Source of the DNA: Streptomyces sp. NBC_00376
GTDB lineage: Bacteria > Actinomycetota > Actinomycetes > Streptomycetales > Streptomycetaceae
Reading direction: 5' to 3'
Assembly (NCBI RefSeq): GCF_036077095.1
Contig: NZ_CP107960.1
Span: 1,550,001 to 1,614,000 of the forward strand
DNA length: 64,000 nucleotides
Part shown: positions 782 to 15,832 of the stretch, piece by piece
Layout: every line of letters begins with the position of its first letter
How positions within the stretch are numbered: position 1 is the stretch's first letter
The notes under the pieces: generated by a model
What the model was told of the DNA's origin: nothing
Databases searched by the model: none
What the model saw: only the letters and a program-made list of their open reading frames with translations
Made by a program: the position numbers and the translations under genes

Positions 782-2182
782 CTAGTCCAGGTACTGACAG
801 GTGGCTCGCGGGGTGTACATGCCGTGTCCGGCCCGGCCGGTGAACTTCCTTGCGTCGATGACGACTTCACCGCGCGAGAGGACCGTTTCGACCTGGCCGG
901 TGATCCGCTTTCCCTCGTACGCCGAGTAGTCGACGTTCATGTGGTGGGTCTCGGCGGAGATGGTCTGTTCGGCCGCCGGGTCGTAGATGACGACGTCGGC
1001 GTCGGCGCCCGGGGCGATGGTGCCCTTCTTCGGGTAGAGGCCGAACATCCGGGCCGGGGAGGCGCAGGCGATCTCGATCCAGCGGCGGCGCGAGATGTGA
1101 CCGTCCAGGACCGCCTGATGGAGGAGGTCCATCCGGTTCTCCACGCCGGGCATGCCGTTGGGGATCTTCGAGAAGTCGCCCCGGCCCATCTCCTTCTGGC
1201 CCGAGAAGCAGAAGGGGCAGTGGTCGGTGGAGACGACCTGGAGTTCGTTGTTCCTGAGCCCCCGCCAGAGCGCCTCCTGGTGTTCCCTGGGCCGCAGCGG
1301 GGTGGAGCAGACGTACTTGGCGCCCTCGAAGTCCGGCTCGGCGAGGTTGTCGGTGGAGAGGAAGAGATACTGCGGGCAGGTCTCACCGAAGACCGGAAGT
1401 CCCTTGTGGCGGGCGGCGGCGACCTCGGCGACCGCCTCGTCCGCGGAGACGTGCACGACGTACAGCGGCGATCCGGCGACGCGGGCGAGCTGGACGGCAC
1501 GGTGGGTGGCCTCGGCCTCCAGCGCCACCTTGCGCACATCACCGTGGTAGCGCGGATCGGTGCGGCCCTCGGCGAGGGCCTGTTCGACGAGTACGTCGAT
1601 GGCGATGCCGTTCTCCGCGTGCATCATGATCAGGCCGCCATTGTGGGAGGCCCGTTGCATGGCGCGCAGGATCTGGCCGTCGTCGCTGTAGAAGACGCCC
1701 GGGTACGCCATGAACAGCTTGAAGGAGGTGACCCCCTCCGAGACCAGCAGGTCCATCTCCTTGAGCGAGGACTCGTTCACGTCGGAGAGGATCATGTGGA
1801 AGGCGTAGTCGATGGCGCAATTGCCGTCGGCCTTGGCATACCAGGCGTCGAGACCTTCGCGGACCGCGCGGCCCACGGACTGGATGGCGAAGTCGACGAT
1901 CGTGGTGGTGCCGCCCCAGGCGGCCGCCCGGGTGCCGGTCTCGAAGGTGTCGGCGGCGTAGGTGCCGCCGAACGGCATCTGCATGTGGGTGTGCGCGTCG
2001 ACACCGCCCGGGATGACGTATTTGCCGGTGGCGTCGATCCTGCGGTCGGCGCTCCAGCTCTCGGCCGCGTCGCTGTCGTGTGCCGCGAGGGCCACGATGC
2101 GGCCGCCCTCGATGAGTACGTCGGCATGCATTTCGTCGGACGCGGTGATGACGAGACCACCGTGGATGACGGTGCGGCTCAT
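782..2182 (-). CDS. hydA: Dihydropyrimidinase / D-hydantoinase
   Basis: 466 residues, the usual length of the cyclic amidohydrolase family. It opens the ring of 5,6-dihydropyrimidines or 5-substituted hydantoins to N-carbamoyl amino acids. The binuclear metal site is complete: H64 and H66 in DAHTHMQMPFGG, the carboxylated lysine K155 in SFKLFMAYPG, H188 in HAENG, H244 in VVHVSA and D320 in STDHCPF. The start is ATG 2182. Upstream lies a perfect 7+2+7 palindrome (2211-2226) that is repeated before the nitrilase gene at 15.8 kb, suggesting co-regulation with the next pathway step. The LLM oxidoreductase follows in the same transcript. Confidence 0.95.
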   Translation of the reverse strand: MSRTVIHGGLVITASDEMHADVLIEGGRIVALAAHDSDAAESWSADRRIDATGKYVIPGGVDAHTHMQMPFGGTYAADTFETGTRAAAWGGTTTIVDFAIQSVGRAVREGLDAWYAKADGNCAIDYAFHMILSDVNESSLKEMDLLVSEGVTSFKLFMAYPGVFYSDDGQILRAMQRASHNGGLIMMHAENGIAIDVLVEQALAEGRTDPRYHGDVRKVALEAEATHRAVQLARVAGSPLYVVHVSADEAVAEVAAARHKGLPVFGETCPQYLFLSTDNLAEPDFEGAKYVCSTPLRPREHQEALWRGLRNNELQVVSTDHCPFCFSGQKEMGRGDFSKIPNGMPGVENRMDLLHQAVLDGHISRRRWIEIACASPARMFGLYPKKGTIAPGADADVVIYDPAAEQTISAETHHMNVDYSAYEGKRITGQVETVLSRGEVVIDARKFTGRAGHGMYTPRATCQYLD

Positions 2183-2210
2183 GTACCCCTCCTCACTCGT
2201 GGCGGAATGG

Positions 2211-2226
2211 GTCTACGCACGTAGAC
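2211..2226. promoter_or_regulatory. Operator A, copy 1 (GTCTACG-CA-CGTAGAC)
   Basis: A perfect 7-bp inverted repeat with a 2-bp spacer, 29 bp upstream of the hydA ATG. The same core, and a further matching stretch on its right side (TGCGT...GAACGTA up to about 2250), occurs at 15817-15850 before the nitrilase operon. The conservation over about 40 bp suggests a regulator site plus promoter. The cognate regulator is not identified; the shape suits a dimeric GntR/TetR/IclR-type protein. Confidence 0.75.
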
Positions 2227-2432
2227 AAGGTGCGTGATGAAGAACGTAGAAGTGGGTTACCCACTGTGGCAATACCGCTGCCGCTAACCGCTGAAGACGT
2301 TTCTGTTTCATCCGCCCGGCACTCCACCGGCCCACAGCCGCGGCGATGACCACGACCACCGCTTGATAACGAAATGATTACGGGTCTGGGCCAAATGTTG
2401 AGTACGGTTCATGCGCCCGTCCCGTACGTGGC

Positions 2433-3491
2433 GTGATCCGATCACCACCGACGGCGAGCCTCGGTACCGACATCGCGCCCACCGTGCTGCGCCACGAGGG
2501 CGTCGCCACCGACCCCGCCTGGAACCTCGACGGCACCTCGCTCGCCGAGCTGGAGCCGGACGCCTTCGACGCGCTGCGCCCCTCCCTGCGCGCTCCCGTC
2601 GACGAGACCAAGCTCCCGGCCGACGCCAAGGGGTGGACCAACACCGCACCCGAGGGCTGGTCGATCGACAACTCGAAGATGCCAGCCGGCGGCGTCACCG
2701 AGTGGCGCGGCTGGTCCTTCGCCACGGACGAGTTCTGGACCAACGCCGAGCGCGGCCAGGGCCGCGAGACGAACGTCCGCGCCCGCGACGTGTTCGCGGT
2801 CGCCGACTCCGACGAGTGGGACGACAAGGCACACGGTGCCGGGCAGTTCGACTCCACCCTGGTCAGCCCCGCGTACAAGCTCAACGGCGCGGCGACGGCG
2901 ACCGTCTCGTACGCGACGAACTACCGGGTCGACGGCCCCCAGACCGGCGACGTCTACGTCTCGTACGACGGCGGAACCCCGCAGCTCGTCAAGTCCTACC
3001 GGGCCGACAGCAACACCGTCGAGCGGCTTGAGCTGGCCGTTCCGGGCGGTGCGAAGTCGGCACGGCTGAGCTTCCGCTACACCGGGACCAACAGCGCCTT
3101 CTGGACCGTCGACCGGGTCGCCTTCGGTCAGCCCCACCCGCCGTCGGATCTCGCCGTCGCCTCCCTGGAGGCCGACACCGTGCTGCTCGGCAGGCCCGGC
3201 TCCGAATCGGCCTGGAAGGTCACAGCGAACGGTGTGGTGAGGACCGCGCAGGGCAAGCCGGTGAAGGGTGCGGAGGTCACGGCCGAGCTGACGGCCGGCG
3301 GCAAGGTGCACAGGCTGACCGGCACCACGAAGAAGGACGGATCGGTCCGCTTCAAGGCCATGGTGGGCCGGGGCATCGCCAAGGCCACGCTGACCGTCAC
3401 CGATGTGCGCCACCAGCACCTCGCTTACTACGGCGAGCTCGACGCGGTCCGCGACCTGGACCTCACCCGCCCCACCGGCCACCGGGGCTGA
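2433..3491 (+). pseudogene. 5'-truncated phosphatase/phosphodiesterase-type protein remnant
   Basis: The frame opens almost at once with SLGTDIAPTVL...DPAWNLDG, which resembles the end of the catalytic domain of alkaline-phosphatase/sulfatase-superfamily proteins. It continues with a jellyroll-like module (WSFATDEFW, FDSTLVSPAY, YVSYDGG) and a carboxypeptidase-regulatory-like beta domain (GKPVKGAEVTAELTAGGK). No signal peptide or metal-binding core precedes it, and there is no ribosome-binding site at the GTG 2433. I read it as the surviving C-terminal half of a secreted phosphatase-family protein whose 5' part was deleted. It could instead be an independent secreted protein with a lost start. 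A strong hairpin follows at 3497-3533. Confidence 0.65.
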
Positions 3492-3496
3492 CCGAC

Positions 3497-3533
3497 CGGC
3501 CGGGCCCCGGAACCACCGGCCGGGGCCCGGCCG
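3497..3533. terminator. GC-rich hairpin terminator
   Basis: A 14-bp perfect stem (CGGCCGGGCCCCGG and its complement) with a 9-nt loop directly after the stop of the truncated phosphatase remnant. There is no clear T-run, as is common for Streptomyces terminators. Confidence 0.7.
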
Positions 3534-3655
3534 TCACATGCGCGCCGGACACGGCCCCGGCCGCCGCGCGCACCCGCCGGGTTACCGTGGCTGTTCCCGC
3601 CGGTGCGGCCCCACCACAGGCCGCCGGGCACACAGCACAGCGGCCCTCCCCTCCG

Positions 3656-3672
3656 CTGTGCGCTGCGCACAG
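3656..3672. promoter_or_regulatory. Operator B, copy 1 (CTGTGCGC-T-GCGCACAG)
   Basis: A perfect 8+1+8 palindrome, 87 bp before the GTG start of the MFS gene that heads the MFS/HyuA-like/DUF917/PucR operon. A copy with one mismatch (13053-13069) lies upstream of hyuA on the other strand. The PucR-family product of this operon is the obvious candidate ligand, by proximity only. Confidence 0.7.
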
Positions 3673-3759
3673 GTTCCCGCTCCCGGGCCTGTCTACTGTG
3701 CCGCCATCCCCAATCGCCGAGGGGCGATTCGGCCGGTACGAAAGCCAGGAGGACAGCCG

Positions 3760-5124
3760 GTGAGCGCGACAACCGCACGTTCCGGTGCAACCGGAGAACC
3801 CCTGGAGACGGGGCCGGGCCAGGCCGCCGGGCCGCGGCCCATCGGTTCCTACTTCGAGGCCATGCCGCTCGGACGCGCCCATGTACTGGCGGCGCTGGCC
3901 CTGTTCATGGCCTTCGTCATCGAGTCGTGGGAGCAGCTCGCCCTCGTCTATGTCTCCGGCGATCTCGGTGACGCGTTCTCCATCGACACCGGCCGGATCG
4001 GCTGGGTGCTCTCCGCCGTCGCGCTCGGCATGATCCCCGGTGCGCTGGTCTGGGGCCCGGTCTCGGACCGGATCGGCCGGCGCGCGGTGTGTCTGTGGAG
4101 CCTGTCCGCCTACGGAGTCGTCGCGCTGGCCTCCGCGTTCTCCCCGAACTTCACGGTCCTGCTGATCACCCGGGTGCTGTCGGGGCTGGCGCTGGCCGGG
4201 ATCTACACGGTCACCTTCCCGTACTTCCTGGAGCTGCTGCCGACCCGGACGCGTGGCCGGGCCGCGGTCTATCTGTCGATCGGCTGGCCGATCGGGGTAC
4301 TGGCCGCGGTCGGCGTGACGCAGCTGCTGGGCGGCCTGGGCTGGCACGTGGTTGCCGTCGCCTCCGCCCTGGCCGGTCTCTGGGTCTTCGCGATCCGCGC
4401 CTGGGTTCCGGAATCCCCGTACTGGCTGGCCGCGCAGGACCGGCACGACGACGCCGCGGCCGTGCTGCGCAGGCTGGGCGTCGACGTCCCCGACGGCACC
4501 CGCTTCGCGGTCGTCGCCCCCGAGCGCTCCGGACGGCCGGTGGAGCTGCTGCGTGGCGGGCTGCTGCGGATCACGGTCCTGATGCTCGTCGTGAACTTCA
4601 CCTTCAACTGGGGCTACTGGGGCCTGCAGACCTGGCTGCCGACGCTGCTCCAGGACAAGGGCCTCAGCATGTCGGCAAGTCTCGGCTTCGTCGCGCTGAG
4701 CGCGCTGTTCATGATCCCCGGCTATGTGTCGGCGTCGCTGCTGACCGGACGTTTCGGCCGCAAGAAGGTCTTCCTGCCGTACGTGGCGCTCGCCGCGATC
4801 AGCGGGATCTTCTTCGCCTACTCCAGCTCCATGACCGAGCTGTACATCGCGAACTTCGCCCTCGCCTTCTTCAGCCTCGGCGCCTGGGGGGTCTGGAACA
4901 CCTGGAACGGTGAGTTCTTCCCGACCGCGCTGCGCGGTACGGGGTACTCCTGGGCCACCGCCGCCCAGCTGGTCGCCACCTCCCTCGCCCCGTCGGTGGT
5001 CGGCTTTCTGCTGGCGCAGGCGACCGGGTTCTCCACGACGATTCTGTTCATCACGGCCTTCCTGGTGGTGGCGCTGCTCTTCGCCGCCCCGCTGCCGGAG
5101 ACCGAGGGCCGGGACCTGGAATAG
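3760..5124 (+). CDS. MFS transporter, probable uptake of a pathway substrate
   Basis: 454 residues from GTG 3760, chosen because AGGAGG ends 7 bp upstream. About 12 membrane segments are visible. The loop motif GPVSDRIGRRAV after the second segment and a second one, LTGRFGRKKVFL, place it in the sugar/aromatic-acid symporter side of the MFS. An N-terminal cytoplasmic tail of about 35 residues precedes FEAMPLGRAHVL. It heads a plus-strand gene series with the HyuA-like, DUF917 and PucR genes, behind operator B. Import of a hydantoin, dihydropyrimidine or allantoin-like compound is inferred from context; drug efflux is less likely. Confidence 0.85.
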   Translation: MSATTARSGATGEPLETGPGQAAGPRPIGSYFEAMPLGRAHVLAALALFMAFVIESWEQLALVYVSGDLGDAFSIDTGRIGWVLSAVALGMIPGALVWGPVSDRIGRRAVCLWSLSAYGVVALASAFSPNFTVLLITRVLSGLALAGIYTVTFPYFLELLPTRTRGRAAVYLSIGWPIGVLAAVGVTQLLGGLGWHVVAVASALAGLWVFAIRAWVPESPYWLAAQDRHDDAAAVLRRLGVDVPDGTRFAVVAPERSGRPVELLRGGLLRITVLMLVVNFTFNWGYWGLQTWLPTLLQDKGLSMSASLGFVALSALFMIPGYVSASLLTGRFGRKKVFLPYVALAAISGIFFAYSSSMTELYIANFALAFFSLGAWGVWNTWNGEFFPTALRGTGYSWATAAQLVATSLAPSVVGFLLAQATGFSTTILFITAFLVVALLFAAPLPETEGRDLE

Positions 5125-5205
5125 CGGCCCGGAAGCGGGGAACCTGTACCGGCTCCGGCCCGGCAGGTCCTCTCCACGGCGCGGTCCCCGGGACGTGATG
5201 GCAGG

Positions 5206-6522
5206 ATGACGCAGGTGAGACTGGGTGTGGACGTGGGGCGTACGACGACGGTCGCCGTGCTCGTACGCCCCGGCGGTGCTCCGCCGGTTCATGCCGTGGT
5301 CGCTTCGTCGGCCTCCCTCGACCGTTCGCTGCGCGATGTCCTCGACGCGCTGGACGGCCTCGGGAACGCCCCGTACGACCGGGCCGACGTCGTCTGTCTC
5401 ACGACCGATCTCGACCGCACGCCGGGCACGCCGTCGCCCGTCGCCGTGCTCCGCATCTCGCCCGCCGCCCATCCCGCGCTCGGCCCGTCGCCGCGTCCGG
5501 GCGGGCTGACCCGGGTGGTGTCGGGCGGTTCGTCGCTCACCGGCCGGCCGCTGGCACCGCTGGACCGGGCCGGTGTCGAGGCGTTCGCCCGGGAGGCCGG
5601 GGCGGCGTCGATCACCGCGTTCGCCGTCTGCGCGGCCGGGTCACCCGCCCGCCCGGAGCCCGAACTGACCGCGGCCTCCGTCATCGCCCGCCTGCTGCCC
5701 GGTGCGCACATCACCCTCTCGTACGAGATCGGCTCACCCGGCCTGCGCGAGCGCGAGAACGCCGCGGCCGCCAACGCCGCACTCGGCTCCTGGGCCGAGC
5801 GCCTCACCGGCACCGCCGAGCGGACGCTGCGCGCGCGAGGCATCACGGCCCCGCTCTTCCTCGCCCGGGACGACGCCGGTCTGGTCTCCGCCGAGTACGT
5901 CCGCCGCTACCCCGTGATCGCCACCGCCTCCGCCACGGCCTGCGCGCTGCGCGGAGCCGCGCTGCTGGCGGGCGCCGAGCGGGCCGTCGTGGTGGACGCG
6001 GCCGGCTCCGCGGTCCGCTGCTCGGCCGTCGCGGACGGCGAGCTGGAAGCCGGGGACGCGGGCCCGGGGCCCGGCGGACTCTGGATGGACGTGGGCAGGC
6101 CCCGCCTGGACACCCTGCCGTTCGGCGGCGAGGAACCGCCCGCCGACGCCCGGCAGCGGGTGGACGCGCTGGTGACCGGTGTGCTGGAGCGCTCGCCGGG
6201 CAGCACGGTGCTGTACGCGGGCGGCGCGGCGCCGCTCTTCGGGGGCTCGCCGGACGGGATCTGGGCAGCCGCGTACGGCGCGGCGCGCGCGGACACCCGG
6301 GTGGAACTGGAGCAGGTGGTGGTCGCGCCGGGCCGCGCGGAACTGGACCGGGTCATCGCTCTGGCCCGTGACCAGGCGCTGGCGCGGGTCGTGTCGGCGG
6401 GCGCGGCACCCGGCGGCGCCCGGGTCGCCCGGACCGTCCACACACCCGTCTCGTACCTCCCGGGCGGGGTGCACCGGATCCGGGTCCGGGCCGTGGGAGC
6501 ACCGGCGGGAGCGACCTCGTGA
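5206..6522 (+). CDS. Hydantoinase/oxoprolinase (HyuA-like) family protein, short form
   Basis: 438 residues. The N-terminus LGVDVGRTTTVAVLV is the phosphate-loop-like element of the ASKHA fold, as in HyuA (DIGGTFTDVV). Later blocks (SYEIGSPGLRERENAAAANAA, YPVIATASATACALRGAALL, VVVDAAGSAVRC) follow the Hydant_A pattern. It is shorter than full HyuA (about 680 residues) because the C-terminal domain is absent. The GTGA overlap with the DUF917 gene indicates translational coupling. HyuA-like/DUF917 pairs are seen beside PucR regulators in several bacteria. The reaction is unknown; an ATP-dependent cyclic amide hydrolysis is plausible. Confidence 0.8.
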   Translation: MTQVRLGVDVGRTTTVAVLVRPGGAPPVHAVVASSASLDRSLRDVLDALDGLGNAPYDRADVVCLTTDLDRTPGTPSPVAVLRISPAAHPALGPSPRPGGLTRVVSGGSSLTGRPLAPLDRAGVEAFAREAGAASITAFAVCAAGSPARPEPELTAASVIARLLPGAHITLSYEIGSPGLRERENAAAANAALGSWAERLTGTAERTLRARGITAPLFLARDDAGLVSAEYVRRYPVIATASATACALRGAALLAGAERAVVVDAAGSAVRCSAVADGELEAGDAGPGPGGLWMDVGRPRLDTLPFGGEEPPADARQRVDALVTGVLERSPGSTVLYAGGAAPLFGGSPDGIWAAAYGAARADTRVELEQVVVAPGRAELDRVIALARDQALARVVSAGAAPGGARVARTVHTPVSYLPGGVHRIRVRAVGAPAGATS

Positions 6523-7649
6523 CCGGCGCACCGGTCCAGGTGGACGCCGCCGTGCTGGAGCGGCTGGCGGCCGGGTCGCTGGTACTGGCGGCGGGGGCGG
6601 CCGAATCGGCGTTCCGGGTGGCGCTGGACTGGGCACGGGCATCGGTCGCCGCACACGGGCCGGTACGGCTGCTGGCCCCGGACGAGCTGAGCGGGTTGCG
6701 GCTCTGCGTGACCGTGACCCTGGTCGGCTCGTCGGCGGCGCTCGCCGAGCAGCTGCCGACGGGTGCGGAGACGGTACGGGCGGTGCGCGCCCTGGAACGG
6801 CTGCTGGGTGCCCGCGCCGATGCGGTCGTCGCGCTGAACACGGCCGGTGAGAACGCCCTGCTGTCGGTGGCCGCGGCGGCCGACTGCGGGCTGCCGCTGG
6901 TCGACGGTGACGGCTGCGGGCGGGTGCTGCCGCTGCTGGAGCAGTCGACGTTCACGCTGGCCGGCGTGGCCGCGGCGCCCCTCGCGCTGGCGACCCCGTC
7001 GGGCGATGTGGTCGTGGTGGAGTCGGCGGGCGGGCAGGTGGAGGACCTGGTGCGGCCGCTCGTGCCCGCGGCCGGCGGCTGGGCGGTGGCCGTCTGCTAC
7101 GCGATGCCGGGCGACGTTCTGGCCGGCTCCGTGGTGCCCGGCACGGTCGGCCGGGCGATCCGCGCGGGCTCGGCCCGGCCCGGCAACCTGTTCGCACCGT
7201 GGTCGCCGCGGCGGCTGTGCCGGGGCCGGATCACGGCGGTGGAGCACCCGGTGGCCACCGAGGACGATCCGTACGGCTACGGGCCGCCGGAGCCGGACGG
7301 CCCCACCGGGCCCGGTTCCGCCCCGTCGTGGCCGGCGCTTCCGTCGCGGCCGACGAGTGTGCTGATCGCCGAGACGGAGGGGATCGGCCGCCACTTCCGG
7401 CTGGAGGCGCACAACGAGGTTCTGCTGGCGCTGGCGGACGGGGCACCGGTGGCCGCCGCCCCGGACCAGATCCTCATCCTCTCGGCCTCCGCCGACCGGC
7501 GGGTGCTGGATGTGGAGCGGGCGGTGCCGGGGGTGGAGGTCGAGGTGGTGGTCATTCCCGCCGCGCCCGCCTGGCAGACGCCCGAGGGCCGTCGGCTGGC
7601 CCGTACCGGCGCGGTGGACACACCCGGCGCACAGGAGGAGCCATGGTGA
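6519..7649 (+). CDS. DUF917 (S-methyl-thiohydantoin desulfurase-like) protein
   Basis: 376 residues starting at the GTG that overlaps the previous stop (GTGA). Features that fit DUF917 are the alanine-rich N-terminus (LAAGSLVLAAG), GENALLSVAAAADCGLPLVDGDGCGRVLPLLEQSTF and the C-terminal LIAETEGIGRHFRLEAHNEVLLA block. DUF917 proteins commonly pair with HyuA-like proteins, and one named member acts on S-methyl-thiohydantoin. A linker rich in Gly, Pro and Asp around residues 245-275 is unusual. The last codons overlap the PucR start by 7 bp. A role in hydantoin-type ring modification is inferred. Confidence 0.75.
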   Translation: MTGAPVQVDAAVLERLAAGSLVLAAGAAESAFRVALDWARASVAAHGPVRLLAPDELSGLRLCVTVTLVGSSAALAEQLPTGAETVRAVRALERLLGARADAVVALNTAGENALLSVAAAADCGLPLVDGDGCGRVLPLLEQSTFTLAGVAAAPLALATPSGDVVVVESAGGQVEDLVRPLVPAAGGWAVAVCYAMPGDVLAGSVVPGTVGRAIRAGSARPGNLFAPWSPRRLCRGRITAVEHPVATEDDPYGYGPPEPDGPTGPGSAPSWPALPSRPTSVLIAETEGIGRHFRLEAHNEVLLALADGAPVAAAPDQILILSASADRRVLDVERAVPGVEVEVVVIPAAPAWQTPEGRRLARTGAVDTPGAQEEPW

Positions 7650-9163
7650 ACCGCCCGGTCCGCGAGGGCCCGCTCACCGTCGCGGAGCTCGTCCAGCAGG
7701 GACGGCTCGCCGGGGTCCGGATGGCCGGGGCGAGCGGACGGGAGGCGGAGGTCCGTTCGGTGCGCATCGTGGACCGGACATCGGTGCTCGACACGCTCGA
7801 ACCCCATACCGCGGTCGTACTGACCGGGCGGGTCGCGGCGGCGGGCTGGACCGTGGAGATGGCACTGCGCAAGGCCTGGGAGCACGCCGCGGCCTGCGTC
7901 GTGGTCACCGGGGCAGCGGGCCGGCCCGGTTCCGTGGGCGCGCTCGCCGACCGGCTCGGGGTGCCGCTGCTGGTCATCGACGAGGACGCGCTGGACGCCG
8001 CGGTCCGGATCGCCTCCGCGGTCGCCCGCCCCGACGCCGGGCGCACCGCACTGGTGGCCCAGGCGGCCCGCGCGCTCGCGGACACGGGGCCGCACGCCGG
8101 GCGGGTGCTGTCCGCGCTGCACGCGGTGCTGCCGTCCACGGCGGTCGCGCTGACCGGGCCCACCGGCGAACTGCTGGCCGGCCGGCGGGCCGCGCTCTCG
8201 GAACAGGGCGGTGCGCTCGGCGTCCGGCTGGAGGTCCCGGACGGTGCCGGTGGCTCGCTGGGCACCCTGGTCGCCCGCTCGGGCTCGCGGGTCGCGGGAT
8301 GGGGCGAGACGGTGCGCGACGTGCTCCGCCTCGCGGTCGCTCCGCTGACCGCATGGTGCGCGGTGCGTCGCCTGGACGACGAACGGACCGGCCACCGCGC
8401 GGCGTTGCTCCTGCGCCGGCTGCTGGAGGCGGCCGCCGGTGACGGCGAGCCCGGCGAGAACGAGCGTGCCGAGGCGGCCGCGCTGGGCTGGCCGGCCCGA
8501 GGCCCGCTCGTCGGCTACGCGCTGCGTCCCGTCGCGGGCTGGGACGGCCCCGATCCCGGCCCCGCGCTGCGCGCGGTCTGGAGTTCGGCGGGACCGGGCG
8601 GACCGCTGGTCGCGTACGGGCCCTGCTGGGTGGCCTGGGAGTCGGTCGCCCCCGCGGACGGGGTGGACCCGCTGGAGGCGGCGACCCGGCGGCTGGCCGA
8701 CGCGCTCGCCGCGATGGCCCCCTATGTGCCGGCCGCCGGCGGGGTGGCGGGCACGGCGGCCTCGTCGGCGGCGCTCGGCCCGGTCCTGAACGACGCCTGC
8801 GCGGCGGCCGGGGTGGCTGCCGCCGGGGAGCCGGGGAGAGTGGTGCGCGGGGACCGGATGGGCGCGGCGCAGCTCCTGTCCGCCGTACCGGCCGAGATGC
8901 TGCGCGGTCCGGCGGAGGTGGTGCTCGCCCCGCTGCTCGCGGCGGACCGGGACGGCACCCTGCTGCGTACGCTGGCGGTCGTCCTCGACGCGGGCGCGGC
9001 CCCGACGGCGGCGGCCGAGGTGCTCGGCGTGCACCGCAACACGGTGGCCGCCCGGCTGGAGCGCATCCGCGCGCTGGGCTTCGACCCCGACGACGCGTCG
9101 CAGCGGCTTGCACTGCATCTGGCGTGCCGGGTACTGCTGCGCGACGAGGGCGCGGCGCCCTGA
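7643..9163 (+). CDS. PucR-family transcriptional regulator
   Basis: 506 residues from ATG 7643, preceded by AGGAGGAG at 5-12 bp. The N-terminal PucR domain begins LTVAELVQQGRLAGVRMAG. The middle is a GGDEF-like/CdaR sensor region. The C-terminal helix-turn-helix reads APTAAAEVLGVHRNTVAARLERIRALG, the HTH_30 signature. Members activate purine, allantoin or hydantoin catabolism in response to a metabolite. Co-transcription with the HyuA-like and DUF917 genes makes it the probable cluster regulator. Operator B (3656 and 13053) is the most likely target, which is inference. Confidence 0.9.
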   Translation: MVNRPVREGPLTVAELVQQGRLAGVRMAGASGREAEVRSVRIVDRTSVLDTLEPHTAVVLTGRVAAAGWTVEMALRKAWEHAAACVVVTGAAGRPGSVGALADRLGVPLLVIDEDALDAAVRIASAVARPDAGRTALVAQAARALADTGPHAGRVLSALHAVLPSTAVALTGPTGELLAGRRAALSEQGGALGVRLEVPDGAGGSLGTLVARSGSRVAGWGETVRDVLRLAVAPLTAWCAVRRLDDERTGHRAALLLRRLLEAAAGDGEPGENERAEAAALGWPARGPLVGYALRPVAGWDGPDPGPALRAVWSSAGPGGPLVAYGPCWVAWESVAPADGVDPLEAATRRLADALAAMAPYVPAAGGVAGTAASSAALGPVLNDACAAAGVAAAGEPGRVVRGDRMGAAQLLSAVPAEMLRGPAEVVLAPLLAADRDGTLLRTLAVVLDAGAAPTAAAEVLGVHRNTVAARLERIRALGFDPDDASQRLALHLACRVLLRDEGAAP

Positions 9164-9249
9164 GAACGGGGCCATGACGGGGCCGCGGGGAAACGGCAGT
9201 GGCGGAAGAACCCTCCGCGGGCTCCTCCGCCACTGTCCCGGCCGGTCCG

Positions 9250-10953
9250 TCAGGCGCCGTACACGGTCTCCGCGTGTCCGGCCGTCAGCAGGCCCTGCCG
9301 GACGTCCTCGGCCACCGCCTCGGCCGCCCGCTCCCCCGCCGGTCCGTAGCCGCCGCCCCCACCGCTCTCGCAGCGCAGCACATCGCCCTCGCGCACCTGC
9401 AGCGCATTGACCTTCAGCAGTGAACGCCGGCCGTCACGGCCCGGGTTGAGGGTGACCTGCGGCGCCGCCCCCGCGGTGCCCCCGAAGATGCCCCAGGCGG
9501 GGGTGACCGACCGCTCCCACCACAGGGAGAGCTGCTGGTCGGCGGCGAACCGGTACTGGCGGACCACCCCGTTGCCGCCGCGGGTACGGCCGGCGCCCGC
9601 GGAGTCGGGGCGGATCGCGTACTCCTCGACGCGTACCGGGAAGAGGGTCTCCAGTACCTCCACGGGCATGTCGCGCAGTGAGCCGTTGACGTTGTTGATC
9701 AGGCAGGACTCGCCGTCGGATGCCTCCCAGGCTCCCCAGCCGCCGACCGTCGCCTCCTGGGAGACGAAGAGCTTTCCGCTGCGCGGGTCGGTTCCGGTGA
9801 ACTGGACGATCATCGAGTCGCCGTAGCCGGCCGCGGCGGCGCGGTCCGGTACGGCCGGGGCGAGCGCCTTGACGACCAGGTCGATGACGAGGCCGAGATG
9901 GGAGTAGTAGTACTGGCAGGCGGCCGGTTCGACGGCGGCGAGCATGCTGCCGGGCCGGGTCAGTACGTCGAGCGGCTTGAACGACCCGCCGTTGAGCGGG
10001 GCTTCGCCGCTGACGAGCAGTTTGTAACCGACCCGGCAGGCCGCGACGGTCTGCGCCGCACCGCAGTTGACGGGCCCGGTCGCCTGGTCGGCGCAGTCGG
10101 TGACGTCCATCGTCATGCGGTCGCCGTCGATGGTGACCCTGACGGTGACGTGCAGGGGGGTGTCCAGGTCGATGCCGTCGTTGTCGAGATGTCCCGTGGC
10201 CTCGTACACGCCGTCGGGGATCGCGGCGATCTCCCGGCGCTCCAGCCGCTCGGTCTGGGCGAAGATGGCGTCGCGGGCGGCGAGCACGGTGTCCAGGCCC
10301 CATCGTCCGACGATCTCCGCGAGCCTGCGGGCCCCGGTCCGGGCGCAGGCGACCTGGGCGCGCATGTCGCCGAGGGTGGGATGCGGGAACCGGGCCTGAC
10401 GGGAGATCAGGTCATGGATGAGTACACAGGGCTCGCCGTTCTCGTAGATCTTCAACGGGCCCATGCGCAGGCCCTCCTGATGGATCGTCGTGGAGTCCAT
10501 GGAGCCGCCGGGGTCCTTGGATCCCATGTCGATCCAGTGCGCCCGGGAGGCCGCGAAGCCGACCAGTTCGTCCTTCACGAAGATCGGGCCGTAGACGGTG
10601 ACGTCGTTGAGGTGCGTGCCTCCGATGTACGAGTCGTTCAGCACCCACACGTCGCCGGGCCGCCAGATCCCGGCGCCGTACATCCGCTCCGTGGCACGGG
10701 TGCACTCCTCCAGGTTGCCGAGGAAGATCGGCAGGCCGGAGGACTGGCCGAGAACGTTGTGGTCGCGGTCCAGGAGTGCGACGGCACAGTCCTTGGCCTC
10801 GTAGATGGTCGGGGTGTAGGAGGACCGGATCAGGGTGGTGTTCATGTCCTCGGCGGCCTGGAGCAGCGCGCAGCGGATGATCTCCGTGGTGATCGGGTCG
10901 ACGGCGGCCGGGGCCGGGCCGTCCGCGGTGCTGGTACTGGTGCCGGTGGTCAT
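9250..10953 (-). CDS. hyuB: N-methylhydantoinase B / acetone-carboxylase alpha-type subunit
   Basis: 567 residues from the ATG whose ATGA overlaps the hyuA stop; the frame stays open further upstream, but the overlap and homology fix this start. Typical HyuB blocks are DPITTEIIRCALLQAAEDMNT, YTPTIYEAKDCAVALLD, WVLNDSYIGGTHLNDVTV, the glycine-rich GRTRGGNGVVRQYRF and the terminal CESGGGGGYGPAGER. With HyuA it should form an ATP-dependent hydrolase for N-methylhydantoin, 5-oxoproline or a related ring. The gene ends 87 bp from the PucR stop, so the two transcripts converge. Confidence 0.93.
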   Translation of the reverse strand: MTTGTSTSTADGPAPAAVDPITTEIIRCALLQAAEDMNTTLIRSSYTPTIYEAKDCAVALLDRDHNVLGQSSGLPIFLGNLEECTRATERMYGAGIWRPGDVWVLNDSYIGGTHLNDVTVYGPIFVKDELVGFAASRAHWIDMGSKDPGGSMDSTTIHQEGLRMGPLKIYENGEPCVLIHDLISRQARFPHPTLGDMRAQVACARTGARRLAEIVGRWGLDTVLAARDAIFAQTERLERREIAAIPDGVYEATGHLDNDGIDLDTPLHVTVRVTIDGDRMTMDVTDCADQATGPVNCGAAQTVAACRVGYKLLVSGEAPLNGGSFKPLDVLTRPGSMLAAVEPAACQYYYSHLGLVIDLVVKALAPAVPDRAAAAGYGDSMIVQFTGTDPRSGKLFVSQEATVGGWGAWEASDGESCLINNVNGSLRDMPVEVLETLFPVRVEEYAIRPDSAGAGRTRGGNGVVRQYRFAADQQLSLWWERSVTPAWGIFGGTAGAAPQVTLNPGRDGRRSLLKVNALQVREGDVLRCESGGGGGYGPAGERAAEAVAEDVRQGLLTAGHAETVYGA

Positions 10954-12992
10954 GCGACGCCTCCGAGTTTGATGACGAGGAATCCGTTGTCGTCCACGGT
11001 GACGGTGGCGTCCGGCGGGACGACGGTGGTGGAGGTGGCCTCGACGATGACGGCGGGGCCGGGGATGTACTGCCCGGGGGCGAGGTGCTCGCGGCGCAGT
11101 ACGGCGGTGTCGTGCGCGGCGCCACCGAAGACGACCGGTTTGACGGGGGCTTCGGGGGCTTCGCCGGGCGCGGCGGCGTACGGGACGGCGGCGAGTTCGG
11201 GGAGCCCGCCGAGCGCGGTGGTGCGCAGGGTGACGAACTCGACGGGGGCCTCGGGGGTCGCGTGGCCGTAGCGGCGTTCGTGGCGCCCGGCGAAGCGTGC
11301 GGCGACCGAGGCGAGGAAGTCTTCGGCGGCCGGCTCGGCGGGGCCGGTGAGCGGCACGGTCAGGGTGTAGTCCTGGCCCTCGTACCGCATGTCGACGGCG
11401 TGCTCGATACGGTGCTGCGCGGCCGGTACGCCCTGCTCCGCCAGGGCCTGGACGCCCTCGGCCGCCAGTCCGGCGAGGGCCTCGGCCATAGCGGTGCCGT
11501 CGAGGCCGGCACCGGGGGTGAAGAACTGGAGCGTGAGGTCGCGGCGGACCTCGGTGCCGAGCATGCCCCAGGCGGAGAACGCGCCGGGGAAGCGCGGTAC
11601 GACGACCTCCTCGATGCCGAGCTCGCGGGCGATCTCCACGGCGTGCATGGGCCCTGCCCCGCCGAAGGCGAGGAGGACGAACTCGCGTGGTTCCAAGCCG
11701 TGTTCGACGGTGAGGGTACGGATCGCCTGGGCCATCTTGGCGTTGGCGACGTCGCAGATGCCGCCGGCCAGCTCGACGGGGTCCAGGCCGAGGGTGGAGG
11801 CCAGTTCCGCGACGGCCCGGTGGGCCGCCCCGGTGTCCAGGGTCATGTGGCCGCCGGCGAACCAGTCGGGGTCGACCCGGCCGAGGACGGCGTTGGCGTC
11901 GGTGACGGTGGCCCGGGTGCCGCCGCGTCCGTAGCAGGCGGGCCCTGGCACGGCTCCGGCCGATTCGGGGCCGACGCGCAGTCCGCCCCCCTCGGCATGG
12001 GCGAGGGAGCCGCCCCCCGCTCCGATGGTGTGCAGGTCCACGAGCGGCATCAGGACGGGGAAGCCGTCGGCGGCGCCCTCGTTGGAGATGTTGGGGCGGC
12101 CGTCGAGCACGAGGGACACGTCGAAGGAGGTGCCGCCCATGTCGACGCAGATCGCGTTGGGCCGGCCCAGCAGCGCGGCGGCCGAGACCCCGCCCATGGT
12201 GCCGCCGACCGGCCCGGACAGCAGGGTCTGGAGGGGGTGGCGGCGGGCGAAGGAGGCGTTGACGACGCCGCCGGAGGACTGCATGACCTGTACGGGTACG
12301 GTCAGCCCGTGCGCGGCGAAGCGGTCCTCGATCCGGCCGAGGTAGCGGCGTACGACCGGGCCGGTGTACGCCTCCAGGACGGCGGACGAGGTGCGTTCGT
12401 ACTCGCGCCATTCACGGGCCACCTGGTGGGAGAGCACGATCATCACGTCGTCGCCGAGCTCCTCGGCGAGGATCTCGCCGGCCCGCAGTTCATGGGCGGG
12501 GTTCACGTAGGAGAAGAGCAGCGCGACGGCGACGGCGTCGAAGCCCTCGTCGCGGGCGCGGCGGGCCGCGGCCCGTACGGCGGCCTCGTCGAGCGGGGCC
12601 AGTTCGGTGCCGCGCGAGTCGAAGCGGCCTCCCGCCTCGGCGGTGGCGTACCGGTCCACGAGCGGTACGGGCTTGCGGTAGTGCAGGTCGAACATGCGGT
12701 CCCGGTTGCCGCGGGCGATCTGGTAGACGTCGCGCAGCCCGGCCGAGGCGAGCAGCAGGACACGGGCGCCCTTGCGCTCCAGCAGGGCGTTGAGGCCCTG
12801 GGTGGTGCCGTGGACGAAGAAGGAGATGTCGGCGGGGTCGTCGACCGCCCGGCCCAGCGAGGAGAAGACGCCCTCGGCGAGGTCTCCCGGCGTGGTGGGG
12901 GTCTTCGCCGCTTCGAAGGTGCCGCGCGTCTCGTCGTACGCGACGACATCGGTGAATGTGCCACCGATGTCCATGGCCACCCGGTAAGTCAT
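10950..12992 (-). CDS. hyuA: N-methylhydantoinase A / oxoprolinase-type ATPase subunit
   Basis: 680 residues, the normal HyuA length. The N-terminal phosphate-binding element DIGGTFTDVVAYD, FVHGTTQGLNALLERKG, the central QSSGGVVNA...LLSGPVGGTMGG, ICVDMGGTSFDVSLV and GAGGGSLA are all intact. It couples ATP hydrolysis to cleavage of a cyclic amide, with HyuB as partner (ATGA overlap). Operator B copy 2 lies 61-77 bp upstream. A second, shorter HyuA-like protein in the cluster (5206-6522) means two such systems coexist. Confidence 0.93.
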   Translation of the reverse strand: MTYRVAMDIGGTFTDVVAYDETRGTFEAAKTPTTPGDLAEGVFSSLGRAVDDPADISFFVHGTTQGLNALLERKGARVLLLASAGLRDVYQIARGNRDRMFDLHYRKPVPLVDRYATAEAGGRFDSRGTELAPLDEAAVRAAARRARDEGFDAVAVALLFSYVNPAHELRAGEILAEELGDDVMIVLSHQVAREWREYERTSSAVLEAYTGPVVRRYLGRIEDRFAAHGLTVPVQVMQSSGGVVNASFARRHPLQTLLSGPVGGTMGGVSAAALLGRPNAICVDMGGTSFDVSLVLDGRPNISNEGAADGFPVLMPLVDLHTIGAGGGSLAHAEGGGLRVGPESAGAVPGPACYGRGGTRATVTDANAVLGRVDPDWFAGGHMTLDTGAAHRAVAELASTLGLDPVELAGGICDVANAKMAQAIRTLTVEHGLEPREFVLLAFGGAGPMHAVEIARELGIEEVVVPRFPGAFSAWGMLGTEVRRDLTLQFFTPGAGLDGTAMAEALAGLAAEGVQALAEQGVPAAQHRIEHAVDMRYEGQDYTLTVPLTGPAEPAAEDFLASVAARFAGRHERRYGHATPEAPVEFVTLRTTALGGLPELAAVPYAAAPGEAPEAPVKPVVFGGAAHDTAVLRREHLAPGQYIPGPAVIVEATSTTVVPPDATVTVDDNGFLVIKLGGVA

Positions 12993-13052
12993 GCCGCCTC
13001 CCGGCTTTCTCAGGGGAATGGCGTGACGCTATCGGTGGGGCGTGGCGGGCGA

Positions 13053-13069
13053 CTGTGCGCTGCGCACGG
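13053..13069. promoter_or_regulatory. Operator B, copy 2 (CTGTGCGC-T-GCGCACGG)
   Basis: It matches the palindrome at 3656-3672 in 16 of 17 positions and sits 61 bp upstream of hyuA. Its right half (CTGCGCACGG, 13060-13069) also forms a 10-bp inverted repeat with CCGTGCGCAG at 13084-13093, so this promoter may carry two half-overlapping sites. Confidence 0.65.
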
Positions 13070-13102
13070 TGCGCGGGGCGCGGCCGTGCGCAGCGCCCGG
13101 GG

Positions 13103-13567
13103 TCAGCCGGTGGGGCCCGGCTGCCGCACGTCCTCGTGGAGGTGGACGATCCGCCAGGACGCCCCGGCCCGGTGCAGGATCACGGTGTTGCGGATGAGCT
13201 CGGGACGGTTCGGAGCGCCGTCCGGGGCGGGGGCGAAGTCGACCCGGAGCCAGAAGCGCAGGACAGCGATGTCGCCGAAGACGTCCACGGTGCGGTCGTA
13301 CGCGGTGAGACCGGTCTCCCGCGGCCCCTCGCCGGGCGCCGGGCGGGCGTCGCGGATCCGGTCGAGGTCGGCCTTGCCGAGCAGGAGCGGGTCGGCGGCG
13401 GAGTCCCAGACGGTCGCCCCGGGGTCGAGTGCCCGGTCGATCCCGGCGCGGTCGCCCGCGTCGTACGCCTCGTACATCGCGGTGAGGACGGCCCATACCG
13501 CGTCGGCGTCGGCCGCCGACGCACCCGGCCGGGCGGTGGACGGGACAGGGTGGGTGTTCTCGGACAT
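13103..13567 (-). CDS. SnoaL-like / NTF2-fold protein
   Basis: 154 residues from ATG 13567, chosen for the AGGAGC 6 bp upstream. The pattern is a helical N-terminus (VWAVLTAMYEAYDAGD), DPGATVWD, then the beta sheet with DRTVDVFGDIAVLRFWLRV and the final WRIVHLHEDV, typical of DUF4440/SnoaL-like alpha+beta barrels. Such proteins can be small isomerases, dehydratases or ketosteroid-isomerase-like enzymes; nothing here identifies the substrate. It lies 85 bp after the aminotransferase on the same strand and may belong to the nitrilase operon. Confidence 0.8.
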   Translation of the reverse strand: MSENTHPVPSTARPGASAADADAVWAVLTAMYEAYDAGDRAGIDRALDPGATVWDSAADPLLLGKADLDRIRDARPAPGEGPRETGLTAYDRTVDVFGDIAVLRFWLRVDFAPAPDGAPNRPELIRNTVILHRAGASWRIVHLHEDVRQPGPTG

Positions 13568-13652
13568 GGTGGTGCTCCTGGGCTGATCCGGGGGTGCGAC
13601 GGCGGCCAAGCTACACAGCCTCCGGCCGGGCCGCCGCCCGCACCCCCGTCGC

Positions 13653-14936
13653 TCAGTCCACCGAGCGAAGGGCCTCGGCCAGGATCTTCGCGCCCTCCTC
13701 CGCCTCCGGGATGGTCAGCGAGAGCGGTGGCGCGATCCGCAGCACACTGGTGTTGTGGCCGCCGCCCTTGCCGATGAGCAGTCCGCCCTCGCGGGCCGCT
13801 TCGAGCACGGCCGAGGCGGCCTCCGGGTTCGCCTCGTCGGTGCCCGGTTTCACCAGCTCGATGCCGATCATCAGGCCCCGGCCGCGCACCTCCCGTACAC
13901 AACTCGAACCCGCGCCGACCGCCCGCAGCCGCTCGATCAGCAGACCGCCGACGCGCCGGGCGTTGCCCTGCAGGTCGTGTTCGAGGAGGTAGGAGAGGTT
14001 GGCGAGACCGGCCGCCATGGTGACCGGGGAACCGCCGAACGTCGAAATGGAGTTGGCGTCCAGGCAGTTCATGACCTCGGCACGGGCCACGACACCGCCG
14101 ATCGACATGCCGTTGCCGATGCCCTTGGCGAAGGTGAGGATGTCCGGCGGGCCGTTCTCGCCGTGCGCCTGCCAGCCCCAGAAGTGCTCGCCGGTACGGC
14201 CCCAGCCGGTCTGCACCTCGTCGGAGATCCACAGGACGCCGTGCCGGTCCAGGACCCGGCGGAACGCCGCGTACAGCCCGTCGGGCGGTGAGGTGAACCC
14301 CCCGACGCCCTGGATGGGTTCGGCGATCAGGGCGGCCGGTGGGCGGGTGTGCCCGAGCAGGTCCTCCAGGTCGGCGACGCATGCCTTGATGAACTCCGCG
14401 TCGCTCAGGTGCTCGTACGGTCCCCGGGTGCGGACGCCGCCGTGCACATACAGCGTCTGCAACGGTGACAGACTGGTCGGCGACCAGGCGTTGTTGCCGG
14501 TGATCCCGACGGCGGAGAACGACCGGCCGTGGTAGCTGTTGCGCATCGCGAGGACCTGGTTCGACCTGCGGTACGTGGTGGCGAGCAGCAGCGCCGTGTC
14601 GTTGGCCTCGGTGCCGGAGGTGGTGAAGAAGACCCGGGCGTCCGGGATGCCGGAGAGCGTGGCGACCCGTTCGGCCAGCTCGACCATCGGCCGGTTGAGG
14701 TAGAGCGTGGACGAGTGGATGATCCGGCCGGCCTGCTCGCTCACCGCCTTGGTCACCTCGGGCAGGGCGTGGGCGGTCATGGTGGTGAGGATGCCGCCGA
14801 AGAAGTCCAGGTAGCGCCTGCCGTCGGCGTCCCAGACGTGGCGGCCCTCGCCGTGGGTGATCTCCAGGGGTTGCTTGTAATAGAGCGCCAGCCAGTCGGG
14901 GCTGACGGCGAGATGCCGCTGGTGCAGGCTGCTCAC
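13653..14936 (-). CDS. Class III PLP-dependent aminotransferase (omega/beta-alanine type)
   Basis: 427 residues from the GTG that overlaps the nitrilase stop (GTGA); a longer frame exists but would intrude into the nitrilase. Motifs are the cofactor-binding FTTSGTEANDTA, SDEVQTGWGRTG (the Asp that holds the pyridine nitrogen) and the Schiff-base lysine in FAKGIGNGMSIGG. It resembles the AGXT2/beta-alanine-pyruvate group. After hydA and the nitrilase make beta-alanine or 3-aminoisobutyrate, this enzyme would convert it to a semialdehyde. The family is clear; the exact amino donor is inferred. Confidence 0.9.
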   Translation of the reverse strand: MSSLHQRHLAVSPDWLALYYKQPLEITHGEGRHVWDADGRRYLDFFGGILTTMTAHALPEVTKAVSEQAGRIIHSSTLYLNRPMVELAERVATLSGIPDARVFFTTSGTEANDTALLLATTYRRSNQVLAMRNSYHGRSFSAVGITGNNAWSPTSLSPLQTLYVHGGVRTRGPYEHLSDAEFIKACVADLEDLLGHTRPPAALIAEPIQGVGGFTSPPDGLYAAFRRVLDRHGVLWISDEVQTGWGRTGEHFWGWQAHGENGPPDILTFAKGIGNGMSIGGVVARAEVMNCLDANSISTFGGSPVTMAAGLANLSYLLEHDLQGNARRVGGLLIERLRAVGAGSSCVREVRGRGLMIGIELVKPGTDEANPEAASAVLEAAREGGLLIGKGGGHNTSVLRIAPPLSLTIPEAEEGAKILAEALRSVD

Positions 14937-15775
14937 GGCTCCACCAGTCCTTCGTACGCGTCGGGGCGGCGGTCCCGGTAGAACGCCCACTGCTGCCTGA
15001 CCTCGTCGATGAGGCCGAAATCGAGGTCCCGGACGAGGAGTTCCTCCTCCTTGTCACTGGCGACCTCACCGACGAACTGCCCGCGCGGGTCGACGAAGTA
15101 ACTGGTTCCGTAGAAGTCGTTGTCGCCGTACTCCTCCTGGCCGACGCGGTTGATCGCGGCGACGAAGTACTCGTTCGCGACGGCCGAAGCGGGCTGTTCC
15201 AGCTGCCAGAGGTAGCCGGAGAGGCCGCGCGAGGTGGCGGACGGGTTGTAGACCAACTGGGCGCCGTTGAGCCCGAGTTGGCGCCATCCCTCGGGGAAGT
15301 GCCGGTCGTAGCAGATATAGACGCCGACCCTGCCGACGGCGGTTTCGAAGACCGGCCAGCCCACGTTTCCGGGCTTGAAGTAGTACTTCTCCCAGAACCC
15401 CTTGACCTGAGGGATGTGATGCTTGCGGTACTTGCCGAGATAGGAGCCGTCGGCGTCGATCACGGCGGCGGTGTTGTAGTAGAAGCCGGACTGCTCGACC
15501 TCGAAGACCGGCACGACGATCACCATGCCGGTCTCGCGGGCGAGTTCCTGCATCCGGCGGACGGTCGGCCCGTCCGGGACCGGCTCGGCCCAGCGGTAGT
15601 GCTCGGGTTCCTGCACCTGGCAGAAGTAGGGGGCGTTGAACACCTCCTGGAAGCCGATGATCTTCGCGCCCTGCCGGGCGGCCTCGCGCGCATGCTCCTC
15701 ATGCTTGGCGATCATGGATTCGGTGTCGCCGGTCCAGGTCGCCTGGACAAGTGCGGCGCGTACGACTTGGGACAA
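14933..15775 (-). CDS. Nitrilase-superfamily N-carbamoyl-beta-alanine amidohydrolase (beta-ureidopropionase)
   Basis: 280 residues from TTG 15775, preferred because AAGGAG lies 6 bp upstream; a longer reading from 15811 lacks such a site and would begin next to the operator. The Glu-Lys-Cys triad is complete: E44 in GFQEVFNAPYF, K118 in GKYRKHHIP and C155 in YICYDRHFPEGWR. It removes the carbamoyl group from N-carbamoyl-beta-amino acids made by dihydropyrimidinase, releasing ammonia and CO2. It is coupled to the aminotransferase by a GTGA overlap. No dihydropyrimidine dehydrogenase is visible here. Confidence 0.92.
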   Translation of the reverse strand: MSQVVRAALVQATWTGDTESMIAKHEEHAREAARQGAKIIGFQEVFNAPYFCQVQEPEHYRWAEPVPDGPTVRRMQELARETGMVIVVPVFEVEQSGFYYNTAAVIDADGSYLGKYRKHHIPQVKGFWEKYYFKPGNVGWPVFETAVGRVGVYICYDRHFPEGWRQLGLNGAQLVYNPSATSRGLSGYLWQLEQPASAVANEYFVAAINRVGQEEYGDNDFYGTSYFVDPRGQFVGEVASDKEEELLVRDLDFGLIDEVRQQWAFYRDRRPDAYEGLVEP

Positions 15776-15816
15776 GAGCTGCTCCTTCGACGCGGCGTCA
15801 GAGAGCCTCAACGCGT

Positions 15817-15832
15817 TTCTACGCCCGTAGAC
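15817..15832. promoter_or_regulatory. Operator A, copy 2 (TTCTACG-CC-CGTAGAC)
   Basis: It has a 6+2+6 palindrome core (TCTACGCCCGTAGA, 15818-15831) matching copy 1 at 2211-2226, followed as there by TGCGT and GAACGTA. It lies 42 bp upstream of the nitrilase TTG. An additional half site, CGTAGA, is at 15838-15843. Confidence 0.75.

Follow-up and report, generated by a model that had tools for sequence, protein, structure and literature searches.

We analyzed a 64,000-nt stretch of the genome of Streptomyces sp. NBC_00376 (contig NZ_CP107960.1, positions 1,550,001 to 1,614,000; hereafter the window), in which the gene of a PucR-type regulator stands between two facing promoters. On the plus strand, the regulator gene is the last of an operon that also encodes an MFS transporter, a divergent HyuA-like protein, and a DUF917 protein; on the minus strand, the hydantoinase genes hyuA and hyuB lie downstream of a gene for a SnoaL-like protein (Table 1). 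A perfect 17-bp palindrome, CTGTGCGCTGCGCACAG, lies before the MFS gene, and a copy with one mismatch lies before hyuA. The initial annotation had reported both sites and the facing promoters around the PucR gene, and we located all of them in the window. Each palindrome is probably the stronger site of a paired operator for the PucR of this cluster, which would activate both operons.

With one mismatch allowed, these two sites are the only ones in the 10.04-Mb genome (three contigs). With up to two mismatches, the pattern CTGTGCGCNGCGCACAG occurs at 22 places genome-wide, compared with 2 for the same pattern read backwards as a control. Up to three mismatches gave six strand-matches in the window against a shuffled mean of 0.71, and six were reached in 2 of 100 shuffles. 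Palindromy by itself was dropped as evidence because perfect 17-bp palindromes (8-bp arms) are expected by chance, about 3.6 times per 64 kb at 71% GC; the window holds four maximal ones. The weight of the evidence is on the recurrence before two facing promoters and on conservation. Another perfect palindrome of the genome, at 6277613 (two mismatches to the pattern), lies inside an open reading frame (ORF) and was rejected.

Table 1. Operators, predicted promoter elements, and genes of the PucR–hyuAB block and its surroundings (window coordinates).
Feature	Position	Strand	Sequence, score, or match
Distal weak operator, MFS promoter	3624..3640 (centre 3632)	+	CCGGGCACACAGCACAG; motif score 7.0; exactly 32 bp from strong site
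Proximal strong operator, MFS promoter	3656..3672 (centre 3664)	+	CTGTGCGCTGCGCACAG; perfect palindrome
Predicted -10 box, MFS promoter	3694..3699	+	TACTGT; starts 30 bp past proximal centre
MFS transporter (GTG start)	3760..5124	+	PF07690, E 9.4e-42
Divergent HyuA-like protein	5206..6522	+	PF05378, E 8.2e-7; PF01968 below its cut-off
DUF917 (S-Me-THD-like) protein	6519..7649	+	PF06032, E 4.5e-35
PucR-type regulator, last gene of MFS operon, proposed operator binder	7643..9163	+	PF13556 (HTH_30), E 3.8e-17
hyuB, hydantoinase B subunit	9250..10953	-	PF02538, E 1.2e-165; PDB 7hk5, E 8.5e-92
hyuA, hydantoinase A subunit	10950..12992	-	PF01968, E 3.8e-98; PDB 7hk5, E 2.7e-122
Predicted -10 box, hyuA promoter	13026..13031	-	TAGCGT; starts 30 bp past proximal centre
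Proximal strong operator, hyuA promoter	13053..13069 (centre 13061)	-	CCGTGCGCAGCGCACAG
Distal operator, hyuA promoter	13084..13100 (centre 13092)	-	CCGGGCGCTGCGCACGG; motif score 14.1; exactly 31 bp from strong site
SnoaL-like protein, upstream of hyuA	13103..13609	-	PF13474, E 1.3e-8
Operator A before hydA, separate pyrimidine-type unit	2212..2225		perfect TCTACGNNCGTAGA site
Operator A before nitrilase–aminotransferase genes	15818..15831		other perfect TCTACGNNCGTAGA site

Two-site operators in close relatives

Close PucR homologs (52.6 to 85% identity by tblastn) were found in Streptomyces sp. NBC_01669 (locus L005) and in four more genomes of the genus (L012 to L015). Five of 392 genus genomes, the own one included, encode PucR at E 1e-60 or better, and exactly these five encode HyuA at 79% identity or more. 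The gene order from SnoaL to MFS is identical in all five relative loci. When L012 was compared with the window and the other four loci, the block was the only common stretch longer than 200 bp; L012 begins at a contig end about 1.9 kb before the SnoaL-like gene, so that its left neighbourhood is outside the view. Extra matches of L015 to the window and L005 were scattered, 45 to 57 residues long, and not collinear. The motif was present before both MFS and hyuA in all six clusters, the window included. The LGVHRNT stretch of the helix-turn-helix (HTH) was invariant in eight aligned PucR proteins, whose identity otherwise falls as low as 36%.

Beside each palindrome we found a second, weaker site; neither this site nor the fixed spacing to the -10 box described below was part of the initial annotation. 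Such a second site was recognizable in 11 of the 12 promoters of the six clusters, the exception being the MFS promoter of L014. When the mean motif score was plotted by distance from the main site (better side; five clusters, L005 being omitted as a near copy of the window), there was a single peak, at 32 bp for MFS (score 7.2) and at 31 bp for hyuA (9.8); the next best distance scored below -2, and the mean was near -14. In the MFS pair, the proximal site is the stronger in four clusters (the window, L005, L014, and L015), whereas in L012 and L013 the distal site is stronger; this switch between species suggests that both places are used. One of the 12 sites used to train the motif (the proximal hyuA site of L014) had been cut one base out of register, and the MFS start codons of L014 and L015 were re-chosen between the first motif scan and the pair analysis.

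A TANNNT sequence follows the proximal centre at 30 bp in all six MFS promoters and in four of the six hyuA promoters; of the remaining two, L015 has TANNNT at 31 bp and L014 has TTGCCT. With the first T of the -10 box placed at -12, the centres of the sites fall at about -42 and at -73 or -74. No -35 hexamer was seen in the 12 aligned promoters, the alignment being read by eye. As read from the DNA, this geometry is that of an activator-dependent promoter.

In L014, a third two-site module with a TAGCCT box lies before the SnoaL-like gene (L014:4868-4942; genome G175). An own operator for the SnoaL-like gene was rejected as a general feature, being found in this one of the eight SnoaL-bearing loci scanned.

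The module in distant relatives and at other HTH_30 genes

A hyuA search of the 392 genus genomes returned nine: the five with a close PucR (79 to 100% identity) and four at 61 to 62%, which have related blocks with a PucR just 35 to 37% identical. A scan of 394 genomes of the class for hyuA of the latter group returned, besides NBC_00376 itself, G654 and, from another family, G650. We scored 11 promoters of these distant loci and of G684 with a composite model (site, 31 or 32 bp, site, 30 or 31 bp, TANNNT) against 400 dinucleotide shuffles. The composite beat all 400 shuffles in six of the 11, namely the hyuA promoters of G089, G154, G031, and G650 and the first-operon promoters of G089 and G202. 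The loci of G154 and G031 (L095 and L096) are very alike and hardly count as two independent cases. Because some of the distant sites had already been seen when the composite score was devised, these promoters are outside the training set with regard to the motif and not to the spacing rule; their start codons were partly our choice. When single sites were scored against 2000 shuffles, no more than about 1 shuffle in 1000 reached the score of any of three of the four distant hyuA promoters, whereas 86% did so for the fourth, that of G202.

Behind its single module, G650 carries on one strand hyuA, hyuB, transporter-like ORFs (a reading of the ORFs, made without a domain search), and the genes of a HyuA-like protein, a DUF917 protein, and PucR, the last cut by the locus end. 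The same three genes stand together beside transporter-like ORFs in G684 (L056:7475-11029), and no hyuAB turned up in the 19.5 kb covered there.

The genome of NBC_00376 has at least 27 matches to HTH_30, 24 of them over the cut-off (150 of 199 candidates scored). The composite score at the window promoters was 42.9 and 36.2, whereas 22 fetched regions, covering 23 of the 26 other matches (all but three sub-threshold ones), contained no such module, the best score being 13.9. A module common to all HTH_30 regulators was thus ruled out for the regions fetched. A site near the regulator of L072 (score 15.0) was also rejected, being without the paired module. Between another HTH_30 gene of the genome and its divergent neighbour there is a copy of the pattern with two mismatches (L059:4413-4429), beside a TGTGAC..GTCACA repeat.

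An exact match to CTGTGCGCNGCGCACAG was found in 13 of the 392 genus genomes (NBC_00376 and 12 others), and the backward control matched in one. In 10 of the 12 others the exact palindrome, CTGTGCGC-S-GCGCACAG, is one orthologous site upstream of a different HTH_30 regulator (loci L017, L018, L019, L020, L022, L023, L024, L026, L027, and L028; site at 1501, or at 743 in L022). The N-terminal sequence of this regulator is the same in all ten, its HTH_30 domain was tested in L018, and it adjoins an ABC transporter of the branched-chain-amino-acid (liv) type, tested in L026 and L020. In the remaining two genomes the palindrome lies inside an ORF, which is a GntR-type gene in L025. The paired module was missing at the palindrome of the other regulator in L057, the single locus scanned. 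The ten loci have a second inverted repeat, TTGGGTG..CACCCAA, about 33 bp off, so that two unlike repeats are paired there. On sequence grounds, the palindrome links to HTH_30 proteins, and it is the pair, not the palindrome alone, that defines the regulon of this PucR.

Gene products and the nested pyrimidine-type unit

The PucR protein of the window has a C-terminal HTH_30 domain scoring 62.3 bits against a cut-off of 27. At the N terminus, PF07905 scored 25.1 bits (E 2.3e-5), below its cut-off of 33.5. For a GGDEF-like middle domain, no PF17853 match was seen at 1e-3, and the protein weakly matched the C-terminal part (GGDEF-like and HTH domains) of MabR (Rv2242) of Mycobacterium tuberculosis, which is the best solved-structure match to PucR (E 3.4e-4, residues 267-495). 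HyuA and HyuB together carry PF05378, PF01968, and PF02538, the domain set of the N-methylhydantoinase/5-oxoprolinase family, and the N-methylhydantoinase 7hk5 is the closest solved structure for both. The SnoaL-like gene follows the aminotransferase gene in the window, yet it adjoins hyuA in eight of the 12 hyuA-bearing clusters examined; judged by synteny, it belongs with hyuAB, an assignment that the initial annotation did not make.

Just two sites in the genome match operator A, TCTACGNNCGTAGA, perfectly: one before hydA and the other before the nitrilase gene. In three relatives (G005, G004, and G006; the three fetched of 14 others with a close nitrilase), the nitrilase, aminotransferase, and hydA genes are contiguous with one operator A, and in G004 this pyrimidine-type operon and the PucR block are about 1.3 Mb apart. 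In both the window and L005, hydA is separated from the aminotransferase gene by the PucR block and carries a copy of operator A of its own. Among the six close clusters, hydA, aminotransferase, and nitrilase genes adjoin the PucR block in these two only, and they were not found beside the block in L094-L097, L104, and L105 at the search thresholds. The PucR–hyuAB block is thus nested in the nitrilase/aminotransferase/hydA operon (782-15831). The cluster had been divided into two control circuits, and that picture holds; the circuits are better described as two units that are conserved independently, the PucR block lying within the other, since the pyrimidine-type operon that is contiguous in three relatives is split here by the PucR block. 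A perfect 15-bp palindrome, AGTGGGTTACCCACT, lies at 2251-2265 just upstream of operator A and hydA, and the same sequence is found at the matching place in L005.

PucR as the candidate activator of both operons

PucR had been named as the natural candidate for binding the palindromes, with their absence from orthologous clusters as the observation that would speak against it. The comparative motif search found the motif in all six clusters, and PucR is the sole regulator among the seven genes of the conserved block. These results suggest that PucR is most likely the binder. With the proximal site at about -42 and without a visible -35 box, we read PucR as an activator of both operons. Before its own operon and before hyuAB, it would bind a pair of 17-bp inverted repeats spaced by roughly three turns of the helix; at the proximal site it would cover the place where a -35 box is lacking, beside a good -10 box. 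PucR, probably together with an inducer from the pathway of a hydantoin-like substrate, would then recruit RNA polymerase to both promoters, with predicted transcription starts near 3706 (+) and 13019 (-). Being encoded last in the MFS–HyuA-like–DUF917–PucR operon, it would also raise its own level.

Of the described systems, this arrangement comes closest to that of GabR of Corynebacterium glutamicum, a PucR-type, local activator of a catabolic operon (gabTDP) for which, according to PMC7652997, strong binding needs both of two inverted repeats located immediately before the -35 region. Two inverted repeats upstream of the -35 region, 31 to 32 bp apart, are found here at both promoters. The two systems differ in that the GabR repeats are 21 bp long and were identified with a different motif, that gabR stands divergently to its target whereas the PucR gene here lies inside its target operon, and that GabR has one target operon in contrast to two facing ones here. 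By analogy, the present system may work like GabR, and its PucR may belong to a GabR-like subgroup. GabR is an octamer; two dimer sites here would suit a PucR tetramer or more. MabR forms dimers and tetramers, which is compatible with a palindrome, but it has a globin-like N-terminal domain and controls mycolic acid biosynthesis (PMC11617747). The GabR paper, PMC7652997, lists PutR and AdeR of Bacillus subtilis as PucR-type activators binding inverted repeats of 17 bp and 24 bp, respectively; these differ in acting on proline and alanine catabolism and in having a GGDEF-like domain. It also describes PucR of B. subtilis, a regulator of purine catabolism that gives the family its name, as having a binding site that is not palindromic, unlike the sites here, which are inverted repeats and do not resemble a PucR box of that type. 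In the literature collection searched, nothing joined PucR with oxoprolinase or 'PucR family' with hydantoinase, and the matches listed for the half-sites were all unrelated, judged by title. PucR and DUF917 occur together in two papers; in one of them, PMC11055893, PucR appears in the reference list only, and DUF917 proteins are suggested to be hydantoinases. PMC10470539 describes an IclR-linked locus that includes a HyuAB whose function is unknown.

The same paired sites could serve PucR as a repressor, a proximal dimer blocking RNA polymerase at -35 and a cooperative pair complex being released by inducer. The proximal site does cover the -35 place, where a repressor would work too, but where no usable -35 box is seen a repressor would have little to act on, the position suits an activator, and the other PucR-type regulators listed in PMC7652997 are activators according to that paper; we regard repression as unlikely. 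A very unlikely explanation, in our view, is that the sites belong to an unlinked regulator, either another HTH_30 protein or a global factor. The abundance of HTH_30 matches in the genome would allow for it, as would the exact palindrome before another HTH_30 gene in 10 other genus genomes and the two-mismatch site that immediately precedes a further HTH_30 gene of NBC_00376 (8804192). Set against this, a binder with only two near-perfect sites per genome should be local, the other 22 HTH_30 regions lack the module, and the module accompanies PucR and its genes in another family. As for chance GC-rich palindromes or DNA structural elements, single perfect palindromes are indeed expected at the number given above, but the sites are conserved, keep their spacing, and recur at both promoters from cluster to cluster, which speaks so strongly against this explanation that we give it almost no credence.

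Activation by PucR through paired sites also has observations weighing against it. Conservation is degenerate, the exact CTGTGCGCNGCGCACAG being absent from the other four PucR-bearing genus genomes. Scores at the distal MFS position are low in the window (7.0) and L005 (4.7), and in L014 (1.2) no site is recognizable there; the -10 boxes were called by consensus in DNA rich in GC. The orthologous exact palindrome before a different HTH_30 regulator counts on the same side, and more than one protein may recognize the half-site. In the distant set, the module failed in five of the 11 promoters: hyuA of G202, HyuA-like of G154 and G031, hyuA of G654 (where the contig ends and PucR is outside the sequence seen), and the promoter scored in G684. 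G650 passed narrowly, at 13.2 against a shuffle maximum of 12.9, and no operator was found in the 19.5-kb locus of G684, though the HTH of its PucR is nearly the same.

Beyond activation by PucR, the HyuA-like protein, the DUF917 protein, and PucR, which also occur together in G684 and G650, might form a conserved sensing trio that moves as a unit from one operon to another. In such a scheme the enzyme-like proteins would pre-process or present a cyclic amide to PucR, which would read the rigid operator (site, 31 to 32 bp, site, 30 to 31 bp, -10) as a molecular ruler for class II activation. We consider this scheme quite unlikely.

Although HTH_30 matches number at least 27 in the genome of NBC_00376 alone, few PucR-type regulators have been studied, and PMC7652997 names a handful. 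An operator with fixed geometry and phylogenetic support predicts, for an actinobacterial HyuAB system, the binder, its sites, the start points of transcription, and the sign of control, and the inducer of PucR would point to the substrate of HyuAB.

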